Assembly (NCBI GenBank): GCA_021797895.1 | Contig: JAJZYW010000004.1 | Location: 1-33,502, forward strand | Reading direction: 5' to 3' | Origin: Microcaldota archaeon | Lineage (GTDB): Archaea; Micrarchaeota; Micrarchaeia; Micrarchaeales; Micrarchaeaceae | DNA: 33,502 nt | Shown: positions 4,050-20,797 of the stretch, piece after piece | How the letters are laid out: every line of letters starts with the position of its first letter | Numbering within the stretch: position 1 is the first letter of the stretch | Translations under genes and position numbers: made by a program | The notes under the pieces: model-generated | Database searches by the model: none | What the model saw: the letters and a program-made list of their open reading frames with translations, nothing else | What the model was told of the DNA's origin: nothing

Positions 4050-4988
4050 ATGTCATTCCTGATTGCTGGAGGTACAGGCCTTATAGGCAGCGCGCTAATC
4101 GACATCCTCAACGCCTCCGGGGAGGACGTGGTAGTCTTGACACGCGGCAGCACTATGGAAAAAGACGGGATCGCATACATACACTGGGATCCGGAGAGGC
4201 CCGACACTGAAACGCTCTCTGATTCGATAAGCGAATCGGATTACGTGATAAACCTTTCCGGCGCGCCTATAACTCCATCGAGGATGAGCAAGGCAGAGAA
4301 GGATGCGATAATGAAAAGCAGGATCGACGCGACCAATGCGATAGTCAAAGCGATAGGCGAATCTGGGAGCAAGCCGAGAGCTCTTGTCAATGGCTCTGCG
4401 ATAGGCTTCTACGGCAACCGCAACGACGAGGAGCTCACCGAGAACTCGCCGCCTGGAAACGGTTTTCTGAGCGAGGTGTGCAGGGCATGGGAGGGAGCTG
4501 CGTTCCGTGCGAAGGAGTATGGCGTCAAAGTCTATGCCATACGGACTGGGATGGTCCTTTCTGCCGACGGCGGATCGCTCCCAATAATGGCGAAGCAGGC
4601 GATGAGGGGCATAAGCGCAACCATGGGCAGCGGGTCGCAGTGGATGTCGTGGATACACATCAGGGACATAGCCAGGCTGATGATAAGCTTCGCGAAGAGC
4701 GGTGCACCGTCAAGCGCTGCAAACGGCGTATCACCAAATCCTGTCAGGAATTCTGAATTTGCCGAAACCCTGGTGTCATCTCTTGGCAGGAAAAATGGCA
4801 TAAAGATACCCAAATTCGCGCTGAAGCTTGCCCTTGGTGATCTTGCCGAGGAGATGCTGCTCTCAAGCCAGAGAGCTCTCCCTGCAAAAGCGCAGGAAAT
4901 AGGTTTCAGCTTCGAGTACCCGCAGCTTAAAGACGCACTGGAAGAAATCTCGCCAAAATTGTTGAGGTTATTGAATGCAAAACGGTAA
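4050..4988 (+). CDS. TIGR01777-type NAD-dependent epimerase/SDR (YfcH-like)
   Basis: IAGGTGLIGSALIDIL, NLSGAPI, RTGMVLSADGGSLP. Confidence 0.9.
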   Translation: MSFLIAGGTGLIGSALIDILNASGEDVVVLTRGSTMEKDGIAYIHWDPERPDTETLSDSISESDYVINLSGAPITPSRMSKAEKDAIMKSRIDATNAIVKAIGESGSKPRALVNGSAIGFYGNRNDEELTENSPPGNGFLSEVCRAWEGAAFRAKEYGVKVYAIRTGMVLSADGGSLPIMAKQAMRGISATMGSGSQWMSWIHIRDIARLMISFAKSGAPSSAANGVSPNPVRNSEFAETLVSSLGRKNGIKIPKFALKLALGDLAEEMLLSSQRALPAKAQEIGFSFEYPQLKDALEEISPKLLRLLNAKR

Positions 4989-6609
4989 GCAAAAGATAAT
5001 AGTGACGTCGGCGCTGCCCTACGCGCACGCTCTCCCCCACCTTGGCAACTTCATAGGCTCCATACTGCCTGCTGACGCATACTACAAATACCTTACGATG
5101 GAGGATGAGGACGCAATATTCATATGCGGCTCTGACCAGCACGGCACGCCCATAGAGCTCCGCGCCATAAAGGAGGGCGTTCCGCCAGGGCAGCTTGCTG
5201 ATTCCGTCCATGAAAGGATAAAGTCCATGCTTGCGGCCTACGGCTGCACGCCAACGTACTACGGGAAGACGCACACCGAGCAGAACAAGCAGAGCGTGTA
5301 CGAGCTGTATCATGCTTTGAAGAAGAACGGCTACATAACAGAGGTGCACGACAAGCAGGCATACTGCAGGTACGACAAGCGCTTCCTGGTTGACAGGGAC
5401 ATAGAAGGCACATGCCCGTTCTGCGGCGGCAAGAAGGCGAGGGGCGACCAGTGCGACGACTGCGGCAGGCTGCTTGACCCAATAATGATAATAGACCCGC
5501 ACTGCAACATATGCGGAAGGTCCGAAATAGAGTTCAGGGACGTGAAGAACCTTGCCATATCTCTTGACAAGCTGCAGGGCCGCATTGAGGCGTACGTGAA
5601 CTCTGCGAGCCAGAACGGCTGGAGCAAGAACGCAACAAATAAGACGTTAACTTTCCTGAAGGAGGGTCTAAAGCCAAGGGATATAACCAGGAGCATGAAG
5701 TGGGGCTTTCCTGTTCCGGAAAAGGGTTTCGAGGATTCCGTCTTCTACGTCTGGTTCGACGCTGTGATAGGCTACATAGGCATAACCAGGGAATGGAGCG
5801 AGTCAAAGTGGAAGGAGTACTGGATGTCAAGCAGCACAAAGCTGATACAGTTCATGGGCAAGGACAACATAGAGTTTCATACGATGATGTTTCCAGGAAT
5901 TCTTCTTGGGGCGGATATGGGATACATACTCCCATACTCGATAAGGGCGAGCGAGTACCTCAATTCAAGAAGCGTCAAGTTTTCAAAGAGCAGAGGAATA
6001 GGGCTCAACATGGAAAGCGCGCTAACGGTCCTGGGCGCCGAATACTGGCGCTTCATACTGATGTACCTTTATCCTGAGAGCGCCGACGTCGAATTCAGCG
6101 TTGACGCCGTGAAAGAAATAGTCAACAGCGTGATGAACGACAAAATAGGCAACCTTGTGCACAGGGTGCTGACATTGTGTTGGTCGAATTCCATTCTGAA
6201 CGGAATCGCTACATCTACAGACGAAAAAGTGGAAAAGATTGTAGAGGGGTACAGGCTCAACTTCTCGCAGCAGCACATACGAGAAGCGCTGGGCAACGTG
6301 GTAGAGCTAGCATCATACGGCAACGAGCTGATAAGCTCCTCCGAGCCGTGGAAGATGATAAAGGACGAGGGCAAGCATGCAGAAGCAAAGCGCGTGATGT
6401 CACTGCTTGCTGGAGTCGTGCGTGCTGTGGGCATACTGCTATATCCGTTCTGCCCGGAATCCTCCTCCAAAGTATTGGAGGCTTTCGGCTCAGGACCAAA
6501 GCTCTCCTCAATCTTCGAGGAGGTTCCACTAAGCATAAAATCACAGCCCAAGCCGCTGTTCTCAAAATTCGAAAAGGAGGATGAGGAAAAGCTTTCCTCA
6601 TTTTCATGA
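4975..6609 (+). CDS. metG: Methionyl-tRNA synthetase, catalytic and anticodon-binding parts only
   Basis: PYAHALPHLGN (HIGH), KFSKSRG (KMSKS), zinc knuckles CPFCGGKK..CDDC..CNICG; no C-terminal tRNA-binding domain. Confidence 0.97.
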   Translation: MQNGKQKIIVTSALPYAHALPHLGNFIGSILPADAYYKYLTMEDEDAIFICGSDQHGTPIELRAIKEGVPPGQLADSVHERIKSMLAAYGCTPTYYGKTHTEQNKQSVYELYHALKKNGYITEVHDKQAYCRYDKRFLVDRDIEGTCPFCGGKKARGDQCDDCGRLLDPIMIIDPHCNICGRSEIEFRDVKNLAISLDKLQGRIEAYVNSASQNGWSKNATNKTLTFLKEGLKPRDITRSMKWGFPVPEKGFEDSVFYVWFDAVIGYIGITREWSESKWKEYWMSSSTKLIQFMGKDNIEFHTMMFPGILLGADMGYILPYSIRASEYLNSRSVKFSKSRGIGLNMESALTVLGAEYWRFILMYLYPESADVEFSVDAVKEIVNSVMNDKIGNLVHRVLTLCWSNSILNGIATSTDEKVEKIVEGYRLNFSQQHIREALGNVVELASYGNELISSSEPWKMIKDEGKHAEAKRVMSLLAGVVRAVGILLYPFCPESSSKVLEAFGSGPKLSSIFEEVPLSIKSQPKPLFSKFEKEDEEKLSSFS

Positions 6610-7461
6610 TCATCTTACTCTGCTTCCCTCCTTGATGCCTTTCTCTGGAGTCAGCAGCGAAAGATTGGAGTCGTCCTCTGCAGCGAGAACCATTCCTTCC
6701 GATATGAACATACCTCCTATGCTCTTCGGCTCAAGGTTTGAGACTACGATTATGCGTTTGCCGAGCAACTCATCCTTTGAATACCTGTCTTTTATCCCTG
6801 CGGCTATGTTCCGTATGCCCAGCCTCCCGAGGTCCACTACAAGCGCGTACATCGGCTTCTTGGTCTGGAGGTCGTTGACCTCGACTATCCTTCCAACGCG
6901 AAGGTCGACCTTTGCGAAATCGTTTATGCCGATGCTCTCTTCAAGTGTCTCTACATAATGGTCCAGTATCTCCTCGTTCTCCCCGAAAAGGAATGAAGCT
7001 TTTATTCTCTTGCCTCCAAGCACATCGGGCAGCCAGTACTTATCGTCAGGCCACATTTTGTCCAATGGAAGATTCCTGATTCCCGCCCAGAGTGGCCGCA
7101 TCTCCTCGCTTTCAGAAGGTTCCCCCTCCCATTTGTCCGCGATGAATACATGTACCCTCTGGTTCCAGTCCTTCTCCTCGGAAGACTGTACGAAGTAGAA
7201 ATCTATGGTGCCCACCTTCCTAAAGGAGCTTACCCTGACGCCTATTTCCTCTTCGGTTTCGCGCATCATGCCATCCTCTATGCTCTCCCCCTGTTTGACC
7301 TTGCCGCCCACGCCGTTGAGCTTCCCTTCGCCGAAGCCCCTCTTCTTCATAGCGATGAGCACCTTCCCAGTATTCTTGTCGACTAAGTAGCAGAGCGTCA
7401 CGTCCCTGAGCTTCTTGCCTTCCTTCTCATAATCAGCTATTGATTTCATAGATACCGCCAA
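6610..7461 (-). CDS. NUDIX (MTH1-like) hydrolase fused to C-terminal MetRS-beta/Trbp111-type tRNA-binding OB domain
   Basis: NUDIX box GKVKQGESIEDGMMRETEEEIGV; MRPLWAGIRNLPLDKMWPDDKYWLP resembles human MTH1; C-term FAKVDLRVGRIVEVNDL..LVVDLG..RNIAAGIKDRY..VVSNLEP. Confidence 0.9.
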   Translation of the reverse strand: MAVSMKSIADYEKEGKKLRDVTLCYLVDKNTGKVLIAMKKRGFGEGKLNGVGGKVKQGESIEDGMMRETEEEIGVRVSSFRKVGTIDFYFVQSSEEKDWNQRVHVFIADKWEGEPSESEEMRPLWAGIRNLPLDKMWPDDKYWLPDVLGGKRIKASFLFGENEEILDHYVETLEESIGINDFAKVDLRVGRIVEVNDLQTKKPMYALVVDLGRLGIRNIAAGIKDRYSKDELLGKRIIVVSNLEPKSIGGMFISEGMVLAAEDDSNLSLLTPEKGIKEGSRVR

Positions 7462-7510
7462 GCGTTGCTTTCAACGTTACATACTGCTACGGCAATGTTT
7501 ATAGTGCTGC

Positions 7511-8005
7511 TTACCAGTCGTGGTGGACAAATGCATCCAGAAGGTTTTCAAGCTTCCTTTTCTTTTCCTCCTCGTTGCTCCTTATGCTGCCGAACACTTG
7601 CGCTACGCCGCTGCCTTCATACTCCTTCTCCCACAGTAAGAATATGCTTATCTTGTAATTCGAGAACGATAGAACGAAATCGAGAACGCTCCCTATGTCA
7701 TTTTTTTCTATCTCCGCCCCGAGGTCGAACGGCGCATTGAGGTGGTCGTAGAGCCCTGTGCTCTCCCTCCTTTCAAGCAGTTTTATCCTTTCGAGCCCGC
7801 TGTTTCCAGCGATGGCCTGCAGCTCCTCGTTCTCCCTCTCCAGGTATCTTCCAAGCCCGCCTATCATTTCCCTGACATTGTTTAGCAAGGTTGTCTCCTT
7901 CAGCCCATCCAGCTTGTCAATGACCCTTGAGTTGAGCGCGCATATCTTAGATATGAACTGCTTCGACAATTCGTCCGTTTCCTTTCCTGATATTGAGCGT
8001 TCCAT
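7511..8005 (-). CDS. Helical conserved hypothetical protein
   Basis: Long ORF, predominantly helical composition. Confidence 0.6.
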   Translation of the reverse strand: MERSISGKETDELSKQFISKICALNSRVIDKLDGLKETTLLNNVREMIGGLGRYLERENEELQAIAGNSGLERIKLLERRESTGLYDHLNAPFDLGAEIEKNDIGSVLDFVLSFSNYKISIFLLWEKEYEGSGVAQVFGSIRSNEEEKKRKLENLLDAFVHHDW

Positions 8006-9409: not shown

Positions 9410-10018
9410 ATGCAGAATTCCAAAGAGCAGTCTAATGCGGAACGCTACAAAGCAATCGAATTTGGGCCGGGAAACAGGGTATCAATATTGGATGGCGGCA
9501 CGAGCGCATCCCCCGACAGAAGCATCTGTGCCGATGAGTTCAAGTCGCTGCTAAGATCCGATCGCGCGGTGCTTGTCGAAACAGAGATTGCCGACATTGT
9601 GCCAAAATCCGCACAAGAATTAGTATGTTATAACGGCAAGTATACCGGCTATAGATATCTCAAGGTGGAGGGTGTAAGCGTGGGCAGCAGCCCGCCCCAC
9701 CAAACCGTGTATCTCTGGGATTCAAAAAATCCATCTAACTCTTTCGGTTTCATCGCGGCGGCGCTCGCAGTATCAATAAATCGGGACTTTCCTGTAGAGC
9801 TTATAGCTGTGGTTGGGCTAAGCAAGAACCCCTACTCGATAACTTACAAAAATCATCACATAGCGTCCTATAATAGACAGCCATCAATGGTTCTTTACGT
9901 CACCGAAGCGGCATTCAGGCTTTCCTGGGGTCTGGGCCCCAATTCGCACATGCTCGATGAATTTTTCGAGCTGGGGCTGCCGCCATTCACAAAAAGGGGG
10001 CAGCAGAATCATCAATAA
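9410..10018 (+). CDS. Orphan hypothetical protein, probably leaderless
   Basis: ORF; TATA-like gtttaaatatg about 26 nt upstream of ATG. Confidence 0.6.
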   Translation: MQNSKEQSNAERYKAIEFGPGNRVSILDGGTSASPDRSICADEFKSLLRSDRAVLVETEIADIVPKSAQELVCYNGKYTGYRYLKVEGVSVGSSPPHQTVYLWDSKNPSNSFGFIAAALAVSINRDFPVELIAVVGLSKNPYSITYKNHHIASYNRQPSMVLYVTEAAFRLSWGLGPNSHMLDEFFELGLPPFTKRGQQNHQ

Positions 10019-14075: not shown

Positions 14076-14354
14076 CTATTTCATACCCGCATCGCTGGAA
14101 GCTTCCATCTTGGCGTCCTTTTTTGATTTCGCTTCTGCAGTTTTCCTGTCTACCAGCGCGTTGATGCGCCTCCTTGCCGCAAGTATGGCTATTCCAACAA
14201 CGAGAACAAACGCACCAAGGTAAAGCATCCCGTCTGGGTTGCTTGAGAGAAGATGCCTAATCATGATAATGTGCCATGTGAAGAGGCTTACCACTCCCGC
14301 GCCTATCCAGCCGTATCCTGCCATAAGCACAGCGCGCCTTGTTTTCCCTTCCAT
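14076..14354 (-). CDS. Small two-TM membrane protein
   Basis: ORF with two hydrophobic segments. Confidence 0.55.
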   Translation of the reverse strand: MEGKTRRAVLMAGYGWIGAGVVSLFTWHIIMIRHLLSSNPDGMLYLGAFVLVVGIAILAARRRINALVDRKTAEAKSKKDAKMEASSDAGMK

Positions 14355-15838
14355 GCTTCATCTTCTGCATCCCAATACTTATTACTTGCCGCGCCTCAAA
14401 TGGAAGAAAATTGCAAAGCCTCTTAAAATGCTTGTGCGCAATAAAACTTGTGGCAGCCCGTGCTGCAGCGGTGGTTGAGTTAGCTGATGTTAAGTTCGAC
14501 GTTGAAAAAGCGCTGGAGCAGCTTCCACAGGACATACGGCTCAGGGCAGTCGACAGGCTCAGGATAAAGTCCGAGCGCCTGAAGCGCACCGGCATGTCTA
14601 AGTTCCTGCTTGCGATAGCGCTGATAGGCCCGGGCATAATAGTGATGATAGCGGACAACGACGCAGGAGGAGTGATAACCTATGCGCAATCAGGCTCAAT
14701 ATTCGGCCTAGGCTTCTTCCTGCCCTTCATGCTTCTCATGATACCCGTCGCGTACATAGTGCAGGAGATGACAGTAAGGCTTGCTGCAGTGACCAGGCGC
14801 GGTCATGCAGAGATGATATGGAAGAGATACGGGAGAGGCTGGGGCATATTCTCCCTTGCAGATCTGGTGATAGCCAATTCGCTTACTCTGGTCACAGAGT
14901 TCATAGGCATCTCTTTCGGTCTCGGGATATTTGGGATACAGCCCGTCTACGCCGTAACCTTTGGGCTGTTGTTTGTTGTGGGAATAACGCTCGGGCTGCG
15001 ATATCACAGGTGGGAGCGTGTCAGCCTTGTCATAGCGGCGTTCAACCTGATATTCATACCATTAGCATTTATCGTGCATCCAAACCCAAATACCGTGCTG
15101 CAGGCATTCGCAACGTGGAAGATTCCCGGCGGAGTAAATTCCTTCTTCATATATGTATTGCTGGCCAACATAGGCACGACGATTGCGCCGTGGATGCTGT
15201 TCTTCCAGCAATCATCTGAGGTAGACAAGGGCATCACGCCGCAGGACATAGGCGCCAGCCGCCGTGACACCCTCATTGGAGCCTTTATCATGGCTGCGGT
15301 TGCGATATCAATAATAGTGATAACTGGATGGCTGGTCCACGGCTACACCACTGCGAACAATAGCTATGATATACAGCTGATACTCAATGTGATAGGCCAA
15401 AAGGTCGGGAAGCTCCCGGTGGAGCTCTTTGCGATAGGGCTGATAGACGCGGGGCTTATAGCCGCGATAGCAATAACCGCAAGCACCTCATGGGCTGTAG
15501 GCGAGGCGTTCGGCTGGCCCCGAAGCATAAATCTCCCGTTCATGAAAAGCAGGAAGTTCTACGCTCCAGGGCTGATAAGCTTGGTCATAGCTGCTGCGAT
15601 AGTGATGATACCCAACCTGCCGTTGAGTTTCCTAAACATAACAGTACAGGTTATTGCGTCGATATTCATGCCGGCAGCCATGCTGTTCCTGCTTCTCCTC
15701 GTGAACGATCCCGAAGTAGTCGGCAAGTACAGGAACAGAGCGTGGCAGAACGTATCTTCGATAGTGATAATGGGGGTGCTTATAACTATGAGCACGCTAT
15801 ATGCAATTTCGCTGATAATACCGAATCTTTTCGGATAG
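14339..15838 (+). CDS. NRAMP-family metal ion transporter (true start likely near 14470)
   Basis: GPGIIVMIADNDAGG (TM1), IGTTIAPWMLFFQQS (TM6), multiple TMs. Confidence 0.85.
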   Translation: MFSLPCFIFCIPILITCRASNGRKLQSLLKCLCAIKLVAARAAAVVELADVKFDVEKALEQLPQDIRLRAVDRLRIKSERLKRTGMSKFLLAIALIGPGIIVMIADNDAGGVITYAQSGSIFGLGFFLPFMLLMIPVAYIVQEMTVRLAAVTRRGHAEMIWKRYGRGWGIFSLADLVIANSLTLVTEFIGISFGLGIFGIQPVYAVTFGLLFVVGITLGLRYHRWERVSLVIAAFNLIFIPLAFIVHPNPNTVLQAFATWKIPGGVNSFFIYVLLANIGTTIAPWMLFFQQSSEVDKGITPQDIGASRRDTLIGAFIMAAVAISIIVITGWLVHGYTTANNSYDIQLILNVIGQKVGKLPVELFAIGLIDAGLIAAIAITASTSWAVGEAFGWPRSINLPFMKSRKFYAPGLISLVIAAAIVMIPNLPLSFLNITVQVIASIFMPAAMLFLLLLVNDPEVVGKYRNRAWQNVSSIVIMGVLITMSTLYAISLIIPNLFG

Positions 15839-18964: not shown

Positions 18965-19501
18965 TCATCTGTTAGCAATGAATTTTTCATAGTATTTTTC
19001 GTAGTATAATACCGCAGCTATGGTCTTGTTGTCCATTATCTTCCCAGATTTAATCATATTTAGAACTTTTTTCAGGCCGATATTTTCTATCTTTATCACT
19101 TCATCTGGGTCCTTATGGAACTTAGCGTTGCCGTCTGTCAAGCCAACTGACAGGAAGCAATAGAATAATTTTGATGATGAACTTGGCGTGTGATATGCTT
19201 TGTACATGAAATATACGCGCTCTGGAGCAAAGCCGGTCTCTTCCTGCATTTCCCTTATCGCCGCTTCCCGTGGGGTTTCCCCTTCCTCTACATGTCCGGC
19301 TGGCAATTCGTATATGTATTTGCGCAACGCCTGCCTGTATTGGCGTTCGATAAGAATAGTGTCTTTCTTTGAATCGACAAATGGTAGTACGACAGAGACT
19401 TTTGGTTCAAAGGTTTCTTGAGTCCGACTCCCTTTGCCGTTTATGTTCCGGTGCTCCGTTTTCAGCGATACAAGATTACGTTTAGTGCGCCCTCTTTCCA
19501 T
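18965..19501 (-). CDS. NUDIX hydrolase, ADP-ribose pyrophosphatase type
   Basis: GHVEEGETPREAAIREMQEETGF. Confidence 0.9.
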   Translation of the reverse strand: MERGRTKRNLVSLKTEHRNINGKGSRTQETFEPKVSVVLPFVDSKKDTILIERQYRQALRKYIYELPAGHVEEGETPREAAIREMQEETGFAPERVYFMYKAYHTPSSSSKLFYCFLSVGLTDGNAKFHKDPDEVIKIENIGLKKVLNMIKSGKIMDNKTIAAVLYYEKYYEKFIANR

Positions 19502-19837: not shown

Positions 19838-20797
19838 GTGATGTACACCACCGCTGATCTTGACTTCGCCTACAAGTACCCTTTCACCGTCAAAGCAAAG
19901 GAGATAGTCAGGGAAAGTTCAGCCGACAAGATATCAGCCGAGACGAAGGAGAGGATACTGAAGAGTGCAGCTGCGAGGGTTTCAGAGGCTTTCAAGAGCG
20001 GCAAACTTGAAGCGTACAGGCTGCACATGGATTCTGCAAAGCTGGAAAACGTGCTGGCATACCCGTATGCAAGGCTGCTTGCCAGCTCGATACAGCGCAA
20101 CGACCTCATGCAGAAGTACATAAGGGCTGAAGCCAAACGCTGTTCCTCCTTCCTTTACCTAGAAGATAAAGACGTTCTCGGCGCTATAGCTTCTGAGCTC
20201 GGGATAAACCTAAAATACGAAGACGATAAATACTCAATCGGCTTCGTCGAATATCTGCACCATGCGCCACAGGAGAGCCAGTTCCGCCTTGTAAATCAGG
20301 AGCTGTCGCAAGGTATCGTGCGCATGAATTTCCAGAAAACCGCAAGCTTCCTTTCCGAGCCGATAGCATCGGCGATGTCTACCGGCTTCCCGATACCGAA
20401 GAACCAGATACCAAAGGAAATAATCGAGTATTCAAAGGCGATAAGGCTGCCAAAGCCCAAGCTCTCCGCTCCCGGAAGAAGCTCGGAGTGGATAGAGAGC
20501 ATATTAGCCAATCCAATACCTGATGTGCGGCAGCGAGTGGTGGGCCTTATACTCGCGCCTTACCTCGTCAACGTCAAGAAGATGGATCCCGACGCAGCGT
20601 ATCCAATAATACTGGACTACATAAACAAGTGCAGGCAGATCGACAACTCGACCCATATAACCGATGCCCAGATAATGTACCAGTGCAAGTACGCCAAGGA
20701 GAAGGGGATGCGGCCGCTTTCATTCACGAAAGCAAAGGAGCTGCTCGCCGGGATAATAGACCTCCAGGACGAGAAAACTGGCAAAGAGAAGAAATGA
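19838..20797 (+). CDS. priL: DNA primase large subunit PriL with PriX-like C-terminus
   Basis: YPFTVKAKEIV, LAYPYARLLASSI, FVEYLHHAPQESQFRLVNQEL; C-term RQRVVGLILAPYLVNVKKMDPDAAYPIILDYINKC. Confidence 0.85.
   Translation: MMYTTADLDFAYKYPFTVKAKEIVRESSADKISAETKERILKSAAARVSEAFKSGKLEAYRLHMDSAKLENVLAYPYARLLASSIQRNDLMQKYIRAEAKRCSSFLYLEDKDVLGAIASELGINLKYEDDKYSIGFVEYLHHAPQESQFRLVNQELSQGIVRMNFQKTASFLSEPIASAMSTGFPIPKNQIPKEIIEYSKAIRLPKPKLSAPGRSSEWIESILANPIPDVRQRVVGLILAPYLVNVKKMDPDAAYPIILDYINKCRQIDNSTHITDAQIMYQCKYAKEKGMRPLSFTKAKELLAGIIDLQDEKTGKEKK

Follow-up and report, generated by a model that had tools for sequence, protein, structure and literature searches.

Next to the methionyl-tRNA synthetase (MetRS) gene of a micrarchaeal genome, an open reading frame (ORF) joins a NUDIX hydrolase domain to a tRNA-binding OB domain, and the locus raises the question of whether this fusion is real, how it arose, and whether its two halves share a task. 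The ORF lies within positions 1 to 33,502 of contig JAJZYW010000004.1 (assembly GCA_021797895.1, a Microcaldota archaeon), the whole of which is referred to here as the window. The window's genome (G000; 0.71 Mb, 77% complete) belongs to genus g1, which has two further genomes (G001 and G002), deposited under names such as Candidatus Micrarchaeota archaeon. All three are metagenome-assembled genomes (MAGs) with completeness of 72 to 78%; a further, unfused copy of either half might therefore escape notice in one of them.

The minus-strand ORF at 6610-7461 is present as described in the initial annotation (283 amino acids from TTG 7461), and the NUDIX and tRNA-binding OB domains attributed to it were borne out by Pfam and PDB matches. 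Judging from sequence, ATG 7449 is the likelier start, because all three fused genes, as well as the stand-alone NUDIX genes of sister genus g5, have a Met at that alignment position. The TATA-like box upstream is also seen in G002. Both Pfam matches exceed their gathering cutoffs, with NUDIX occupying residues 19-146 and tRNA_bind residues 187-280 of the 283-aa ORF. The closest PDB relatives of residues 29-175 are MTH1/NUDT1 structures (2e-36), and that of residues 179-283 is the MetRS C-terminal domain 1mkh (1.9e-23). Two complete domains in one chain, with a near-seamless join, are thereby confirmed. The features of the locus are as follows.

6610..7449, minus strand: fused gene, NUDIX plus MetRS beta; 279 aa from ATG 7449 (the TTG 7461 start adds 4 aa)
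7498-7503, minus strand: TATA-like box TATAAA, 49 to 54 nt upstream of ATG 7449; a consensus match only
7024..7407, minus strand: NUDIX domain, MTH1/NUDT1 type (PF00293, 2.9e-14; hMTH1, 2e-36; Foldseek TM 0.95)
7315..7317, minus strand: Asn45, equivalent to base-pocket residue Asn33 of hMTH1 (alignment to MTH1 chains)
7237..7305, minus strand: complete Nudix box GX5EX7REUXEEXGU, GKVKQGESIEDGMMRETEEEIGV (residues 49-71)
7042..7053, minus strand: base-recognition motif W-P-D-D, equivalent to hMTH1 W117, D119, and D120 (alignment to MTH1 chains)
6922..6951, minus strand: junction ETLEESIGIN, NUDIX end and beta start (codon comparison, three genomes)
6934-6936, minus strand: AGC (Ser172) at the expected beta start-codon site (codon comparison)
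6622..6903, minus strand: tRNA_bind OB domain, MetRS beta/Trbp111 family (PF01588, 6.6e-20; 1mkh, 1.1e-23; 1pyb, which is Trbp111, 7.9e-20)
4975..6609, plus strand: MetRS, 544 aa, with catalytic and anticodon domains and without a C-terminal OB domain (Pfam/NCBIfam)

MTH1 (NUDT1) is a pyrophosphatase that acts on 8-oxo-dGTP, 2-OH-dATP, O6-methyl-dGTP, and N6-methyl-dATP. The initial view that the NUDIX half is MTH1-like is supported by the PDB match, the predicted fold, and the conserved pocket residues. The AlphaFold2 model of this half has block pLDDT values mostly between 81 and 97, and its top PDB matches by Foldseek are all MTH1 (hMTH1 target, TM-score 0.95, 1.4 Å, 43% identity). Nudix-box columns E55, R63, E64, E67, and E68 are invariant among 42 aligned homologues, as is G70 in a 10-sequence alignment. 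Eight hMTH1 residues (F27, N33, F72, E100, W117, D119, D120, and W123) are conserved in the NUDIX half; F27, N33, F72, W117, D119, and D120 have a role in base recognition (PMC4801406). Conservation of the base-recognition residues, together with an unbroken Nudix box, leads naturally to the prediction that the NUDIX half, like MTH1, acts on modified purine nucleoside triphosphates. One base-pocket contact of hMTH1, the auxiliary and noncatalytic Met81, has no counterpart in the phmmer alignment, where the loop is four residues longer, and fine specificity may differ because this contact is absent. Overall, the NUDIX half resembles the human enzyme in identity (∼43% across the domain), Nudix box, recognized base-pocket residues, and predicted fold, and differs from it in being archaeal, in the four-residue insertion, and in carrying an OB domain at its C terminus.

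Assignment of the C-terminal half to the MetRS-beta/Trbp111 fold, also proposed initially, agrees with its PF01588, 1mkh, and 1pyb matches. The tRNA_bind match scores 71.5 bits against a cutoff of 27 and covers profile positions 1 to 95 of 96. The best NCBIfam model is TIGR00399 (metG_C_term), at 104.7 bits and under its cutoff of 116.65; CsaA models score lower (87 bits against a cutoff of 119.65). Trbp111 recognizes tRNA solely through the 3' CA, with defined contact roles for the pocket residues (PMC11286949). Of that pocket, K33, I77, S82, and M85 are retained in the OB half, R75 is replaced by Lys (a substitution also found in the Pyrococcus MetRS domain 1mkh), and F78 is replaced by Gly. 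Owing to this glycine and to an additional residue in the L45 loop, tRNA affinity may differ. Because Trbp-type proteins that stand alone bind diverse tRNAs (PMC11286949), it is gene order that points to a MetRS-specific role for the OB half. Segments flanking the OB fold on its N- and C-terminal sides form the strong dimer interface of Trbp (PMC11286949), and since both flanks are present in the fusion, a NUDIX-carrying dimer formed through the OB half is likely. The AlphaFold2 model of this half is of low confidence (block pLDDT of about 28 to 58) because only three alignment rows covered it, stand-alone betas having been left out.

In comparison with MetRS beta or C-terminal OB domains (1mkh and 5h34) and Trbp111 (1pyb and 8vtz), the OB half is alike in having the whole domain, most of the 3'-CA pocket, and a position adjacent to the MetRS gene (metG). 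It is unlike them in the extra L45-loop residue, in the Gly in place of F78, and in having its N terminus joined to a NUDIX domain rather than free or attached to a MetRS core. Arc1p, AIMP1, and Trypanosoma brucei MCP1 and MCP2 offer a parallel, as Trbp-type OB domains joined to an extra domain and serving synthetases in trans, although their partner domain is GST-like or a scaffold, whereas here it is a hydrolase. A deacylase function of the Arc1p/MCP1 type was considered and rejected. MCP1 residues K326, R331, and S335 correspond to E, G, and S in NLEPKSIGGMFIS (mapped by eye via Trbp111), and the inactive MCP2 has the same E/G pair (PMC12021450). With Glu and Gly at positions where MCP1 and Arc1p have deacylase residues, the OB half is not expected to act as a deacylase.

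The absence of an OB domain from the adjacent MetRS, also stated in the initial annotation, was confirmed by a domain search that found catalytic and anticodon-binding domains only. The metG and fused genes meet tail-to-tail with adjoining stop codons, and the layout is the same in G001 and G002. A beta match occurs in 83 of 85 genomes of the family and in 27/27 genera (g1 counted); outside g1, beta is a separate short ORF among the matches listed. It stands tail-to-tail with metG, at a distance of ≤1.2 kb, in 25 of the 46 relatives in which both genes were placed, and the block MCM-metG-beta-S8e-(125-aa ORF)-OTC recurs across genera. Given this shared block and the tail-to-tail position, the C-terminal half is the MetRS-beta gene that already resided at this ancestral site. 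Since alpha and beta are split across the family, with free beta beside metG, an OB-less MetRS with a free beta is the ancestral and normal state in this archaeal family. Transfer of the OB domain from MetRS to a NUDIX gene is ruled out on the same grounds. What happened in genus g1, and only there, is the addition of a NUDIX gene upstream of beta. No MetRS-type beta beyond the fusion was found in the three g1 genomes, in which the second PF01588 match is a CsaA-like paralogue, and no second MTH1-type NUDIX was found in them. The beta tree was poorly resolved and did not place g1 among the genera.

MTH1-like NUDIX proteins that are unfused and encoded elsewhere occur in both Micrarchaeota and Patescibacteria; they share the motifs of the NUDIX half (identity of 71 to 78% in sister genus g5 and ∼48 to 64% in others). 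The g5 gene, about 72% identical, adjoins an Nramp gene (locus L160). DNA similarity to the g5 NUDIX gene, as seen by blastn, spans 7468 to 6933 and ends at the join. A blastn search with the g5 NUDIX locus matched only the fused gene and Nramp in the window, with no NUDIX remnant upstream of the latter. An Nramp-type gene directly follows the stand-alone NUDIX in g5; its counterpart in the window (14339-15838) is ∼7 kb away from the fused gene, which may be a relic of the rearrangement by which NUDIX came to beta. More broadly, MTH1-like NUDIX genes are unevenly distributed in Micrarchaeota and frequent in Patescibacteria, with identities of ∼48 to 64% across the domain boundary (L071 to L150), a pattern that suggests transfer between the two groups.

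Several further observations concern this neighborhood and the free betas of relatives. In g1, beta and S8e are separated by an M16 peptidase gene and two orphan ORFs; in the other genera examined, no relative of the orphans was found at the equivalent site. Window ORFs 7511-8005 and 9410-10018, near the fused gene, have no Pfam match and no relatives in the syntenic blocks examined from other genera, but are matched in the other g1 genomes. Free betas of genera g4, g6, and g19 (L212 to L219 and L190) carry an acidic, low-complexity N-terminal extension of ∼50 to 60 aa, often opening with a motif like DIDSIMxDI(N/D)E, which is possibly a docking peptide; in several of these genera, beta no longer adjoins metG. 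A very divergent MetRS (∼30% identity, partial) stands beside the same beta in G005, G013, G017, G021, G024, G029, G044, and others, which suggests that the synthetase was replaced there while beta was retained.

The fusion is present in 3/3 genomes of g1, with the other two copies 96% and 88% identical to the window's gene, and its junction is kept as ETL(E/G)ESIGI(N/D). The stand-alone NUDIX of g5 closes with DHYVKAL(E/G)E and a short tail, (G/N)..A(D/E)-stop, and the stand-alone betas of genus g18 begin with M-V-T-I-E-(D/E)-F; the fusion runs from DHYVETLEE straight into S-I-G-I-N-D-F. By this comparison, both partners have kept everything essential at the join. Release of a free beta from an internal start was rejected, as no in-frame ATG, GTG, or TTG occurs near the beta start in G000. 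Across the three genomes, dN/dS is 0.04 to 0.07 for the whole fused gene, junction included. The NUDIX half gives 0.045 to 0.085 and the beta half 0.02 to 0.035, at dS values of 0.4 to 1.3, which is similar to MetRS (0.05 to 0.07). Both halves have thus been under strong purifying selection since the fusion. Divergence over the fused gene reaches a dS of about 1.1, with up to 57% of synonymous sites differing among the three genomes. An assembly join between two ORFs, the concern raised by the initial annotation, is excluded because the same junction recurs in genomes this diverged. The flanking gene order is conserved as well; even for metagenome-assembled genomes, a chimera or frame error is a negligible prospect.

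In searches of other genomes, the fusion was seen only in g1 among the matches listed. Among the matches listed for 301 genomes of the phylum (126 genera), both halves were matched in one frame only in the three g1 genomes, and among those listed for 333 Patescibacteria, none spans both halves in one frame. The best 80 MTH1-like loci of 84,980 GTDB genomes lack a beta partner, save those of the same two species. No report of a NUDIX-tRNA_bind fusion was found in the open literature, which omits most subscription journals, and the NUDIX-MetRS beta fusion is apparently undescribed. The domain architecture is new, genus-restricted, and built from known, intact families.

NUDIX domains have other associations in the genomes searched. 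The window's genome encodes, on contig C13 (L067, 892-1857, minus strand), a ∼321-aa ORF combining NUDIX (Pfam, 4.1e-14) with a family-4 uracil-DNA glycosylase (TIGR00758, 3.1e-43). In the Clostridia MAG RGIG5890 (L135, 3016-4548, plus strand), an MTH1-like NUDIX is in frame with adenylosuccinate synthetase (PurA) in a 510-aa protein. NUDIX domains thus seem to have joined a range of partners with which they share no obvious pathway. One patescibacterial genome (G344; L208, 3894-5124, minus strand) has a run of NUDIX, CsaA-type tRNA-binding, and MTH1-like NUDIX genes separated by 2-bp gaps. A conserved NUDIX-tRNA_bind operon was rejected, as this single case is not kept in its family. The incomplete 0.71-Mb genome G000 holds nine NUDIX genes, the second within the window lying at 18965-19501; a 319-aa ORF at 19838-20797 of the window matches the PriX (primase X) domain (1.4e-11).

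Taken together, we favor, with a probability of about 65%, the reading that gene fusion in g1 gave one bifunctional protein, a nucleotide-pool sanitizer and MetRS beta with two largely independent jobs. An MTH1-type NUDIX gene fused in frame to a free-standing beta already tail-to-tail with metG. The NUDIX half would hydrolyze modified purine (d)NTPs (for example, 8-oxo-dGTP, 2-OH-dATP, or N6-/O6-methyl purine dNTPs), and the OB half would capture the tRNA 3' CA end and assist the truncated MetRS. Dimerization through the OB half probably keeps two NUDIX domains together. Union would then provide co-production and shared dimerization, the activities most likely being independent. Substrates, tRNA binding, MetRS association, dimerization, and independence of function are all inferred here. 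Two independent functions are favored because the link occurs in one genus only, with NUDIX and beta apart in the relatives examined, and because NUDIX is also joined to uracil-DNA glycosylase in the same genome and to PurA in Clostridia. The initial suggestion of a MetRS cofactor with a second function survives in the form of one polypeptide with two jobs. The other initial suggestion, that the hydrolase processes by-products of aminoacylation or works at the MetRS-tRNA complex, found no backing; among the genomes searched, no other MTH1-like gene was seen linked to metG or beta.

That second suggestion belongs to a reading in which the halves are functionally coupled: the OB half would bring the hydrolase to tRNA 3' ends or MetRS, clearing nucleotides that spoil aminoacylation, such as oxidized ATP and adenylated or dinucleotide by-products. 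In its favor, 8-oxo-rATP is bound by MTH1, for which it is a weak substrate (PMC4801406), beta probably partners MetRS, and strong selection has preserved the fusion, together with its junction, in three species. Against this, only 1 of 126 genera in the phylum has the fusion among the matches listed, and the relatives' loci examined show no NUDIX-beta or NUDIX-metG neighborhood. The patescibacterial gene order, in which a CsaA-type tRNA-binding gene lies directly upstream of an MTH1-like NUDIX gene, would speak for coupling, but it is absent from other genomes of that family. The 21 NCBIfam matches include no Ap4A-hydrolase model, although the library may have no suitable one. Finally, the glycosylase fusion in the window's own genome means that NUDIX fusions need not imply a shared pathway. 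We therefore regard coupling as unlikely, and its specific form, a tRNA- or MetRS-tethered hydrolase of oxidized purines at the methionyl-tRNA charging site that couples nucleotide damage control to translation in a genome-reduced archaeon, as somewhat more doubtful still.

Coupling could instead be regulatory, with nucleotide binding by the NUDIX domain gating tRNA delivery by beta and slowing methionylation under oxidative stress. The N-terminal extensions on several relatives' betas indicate that this terminus accepts extra parts, and oxidative habitats are plausible, on inference only; the NUDIX catalytic residues, however, are fully conserved, which would be needless in a mere sensor, and the halves are not linked elsewhere. 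We give this idea little credence, and equally little to a neutral fusion in which one domain works while the other decays as a passenger. Confinement to one genus, with no linkage elsewhere among the matches listed, would suit a neutral event. Purifying selection on both halves at dS near 1, the intactness of all key NUDIX and most OB residues, and the failure to find a second MTH1-type NUDIX or MetRS-type beta in g1 genomes all argue otherwise.

The reading of one protein with two largely independent jobs makes the interest of this locus modest unless biochemistry reveals coupling. The locus offers a clear example of a free synthetase partner gaining an enzyme domain, traceable from separate genes through a seamless fusion to purifying selection. 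If the activities are uncoupled, it counsels caution, in that a domain fusion confined to a single genus says little about whether the domains share a pathway. If they are coupled, nucleotide-pool sanitation would be linked to tRNA charging in these archaea.
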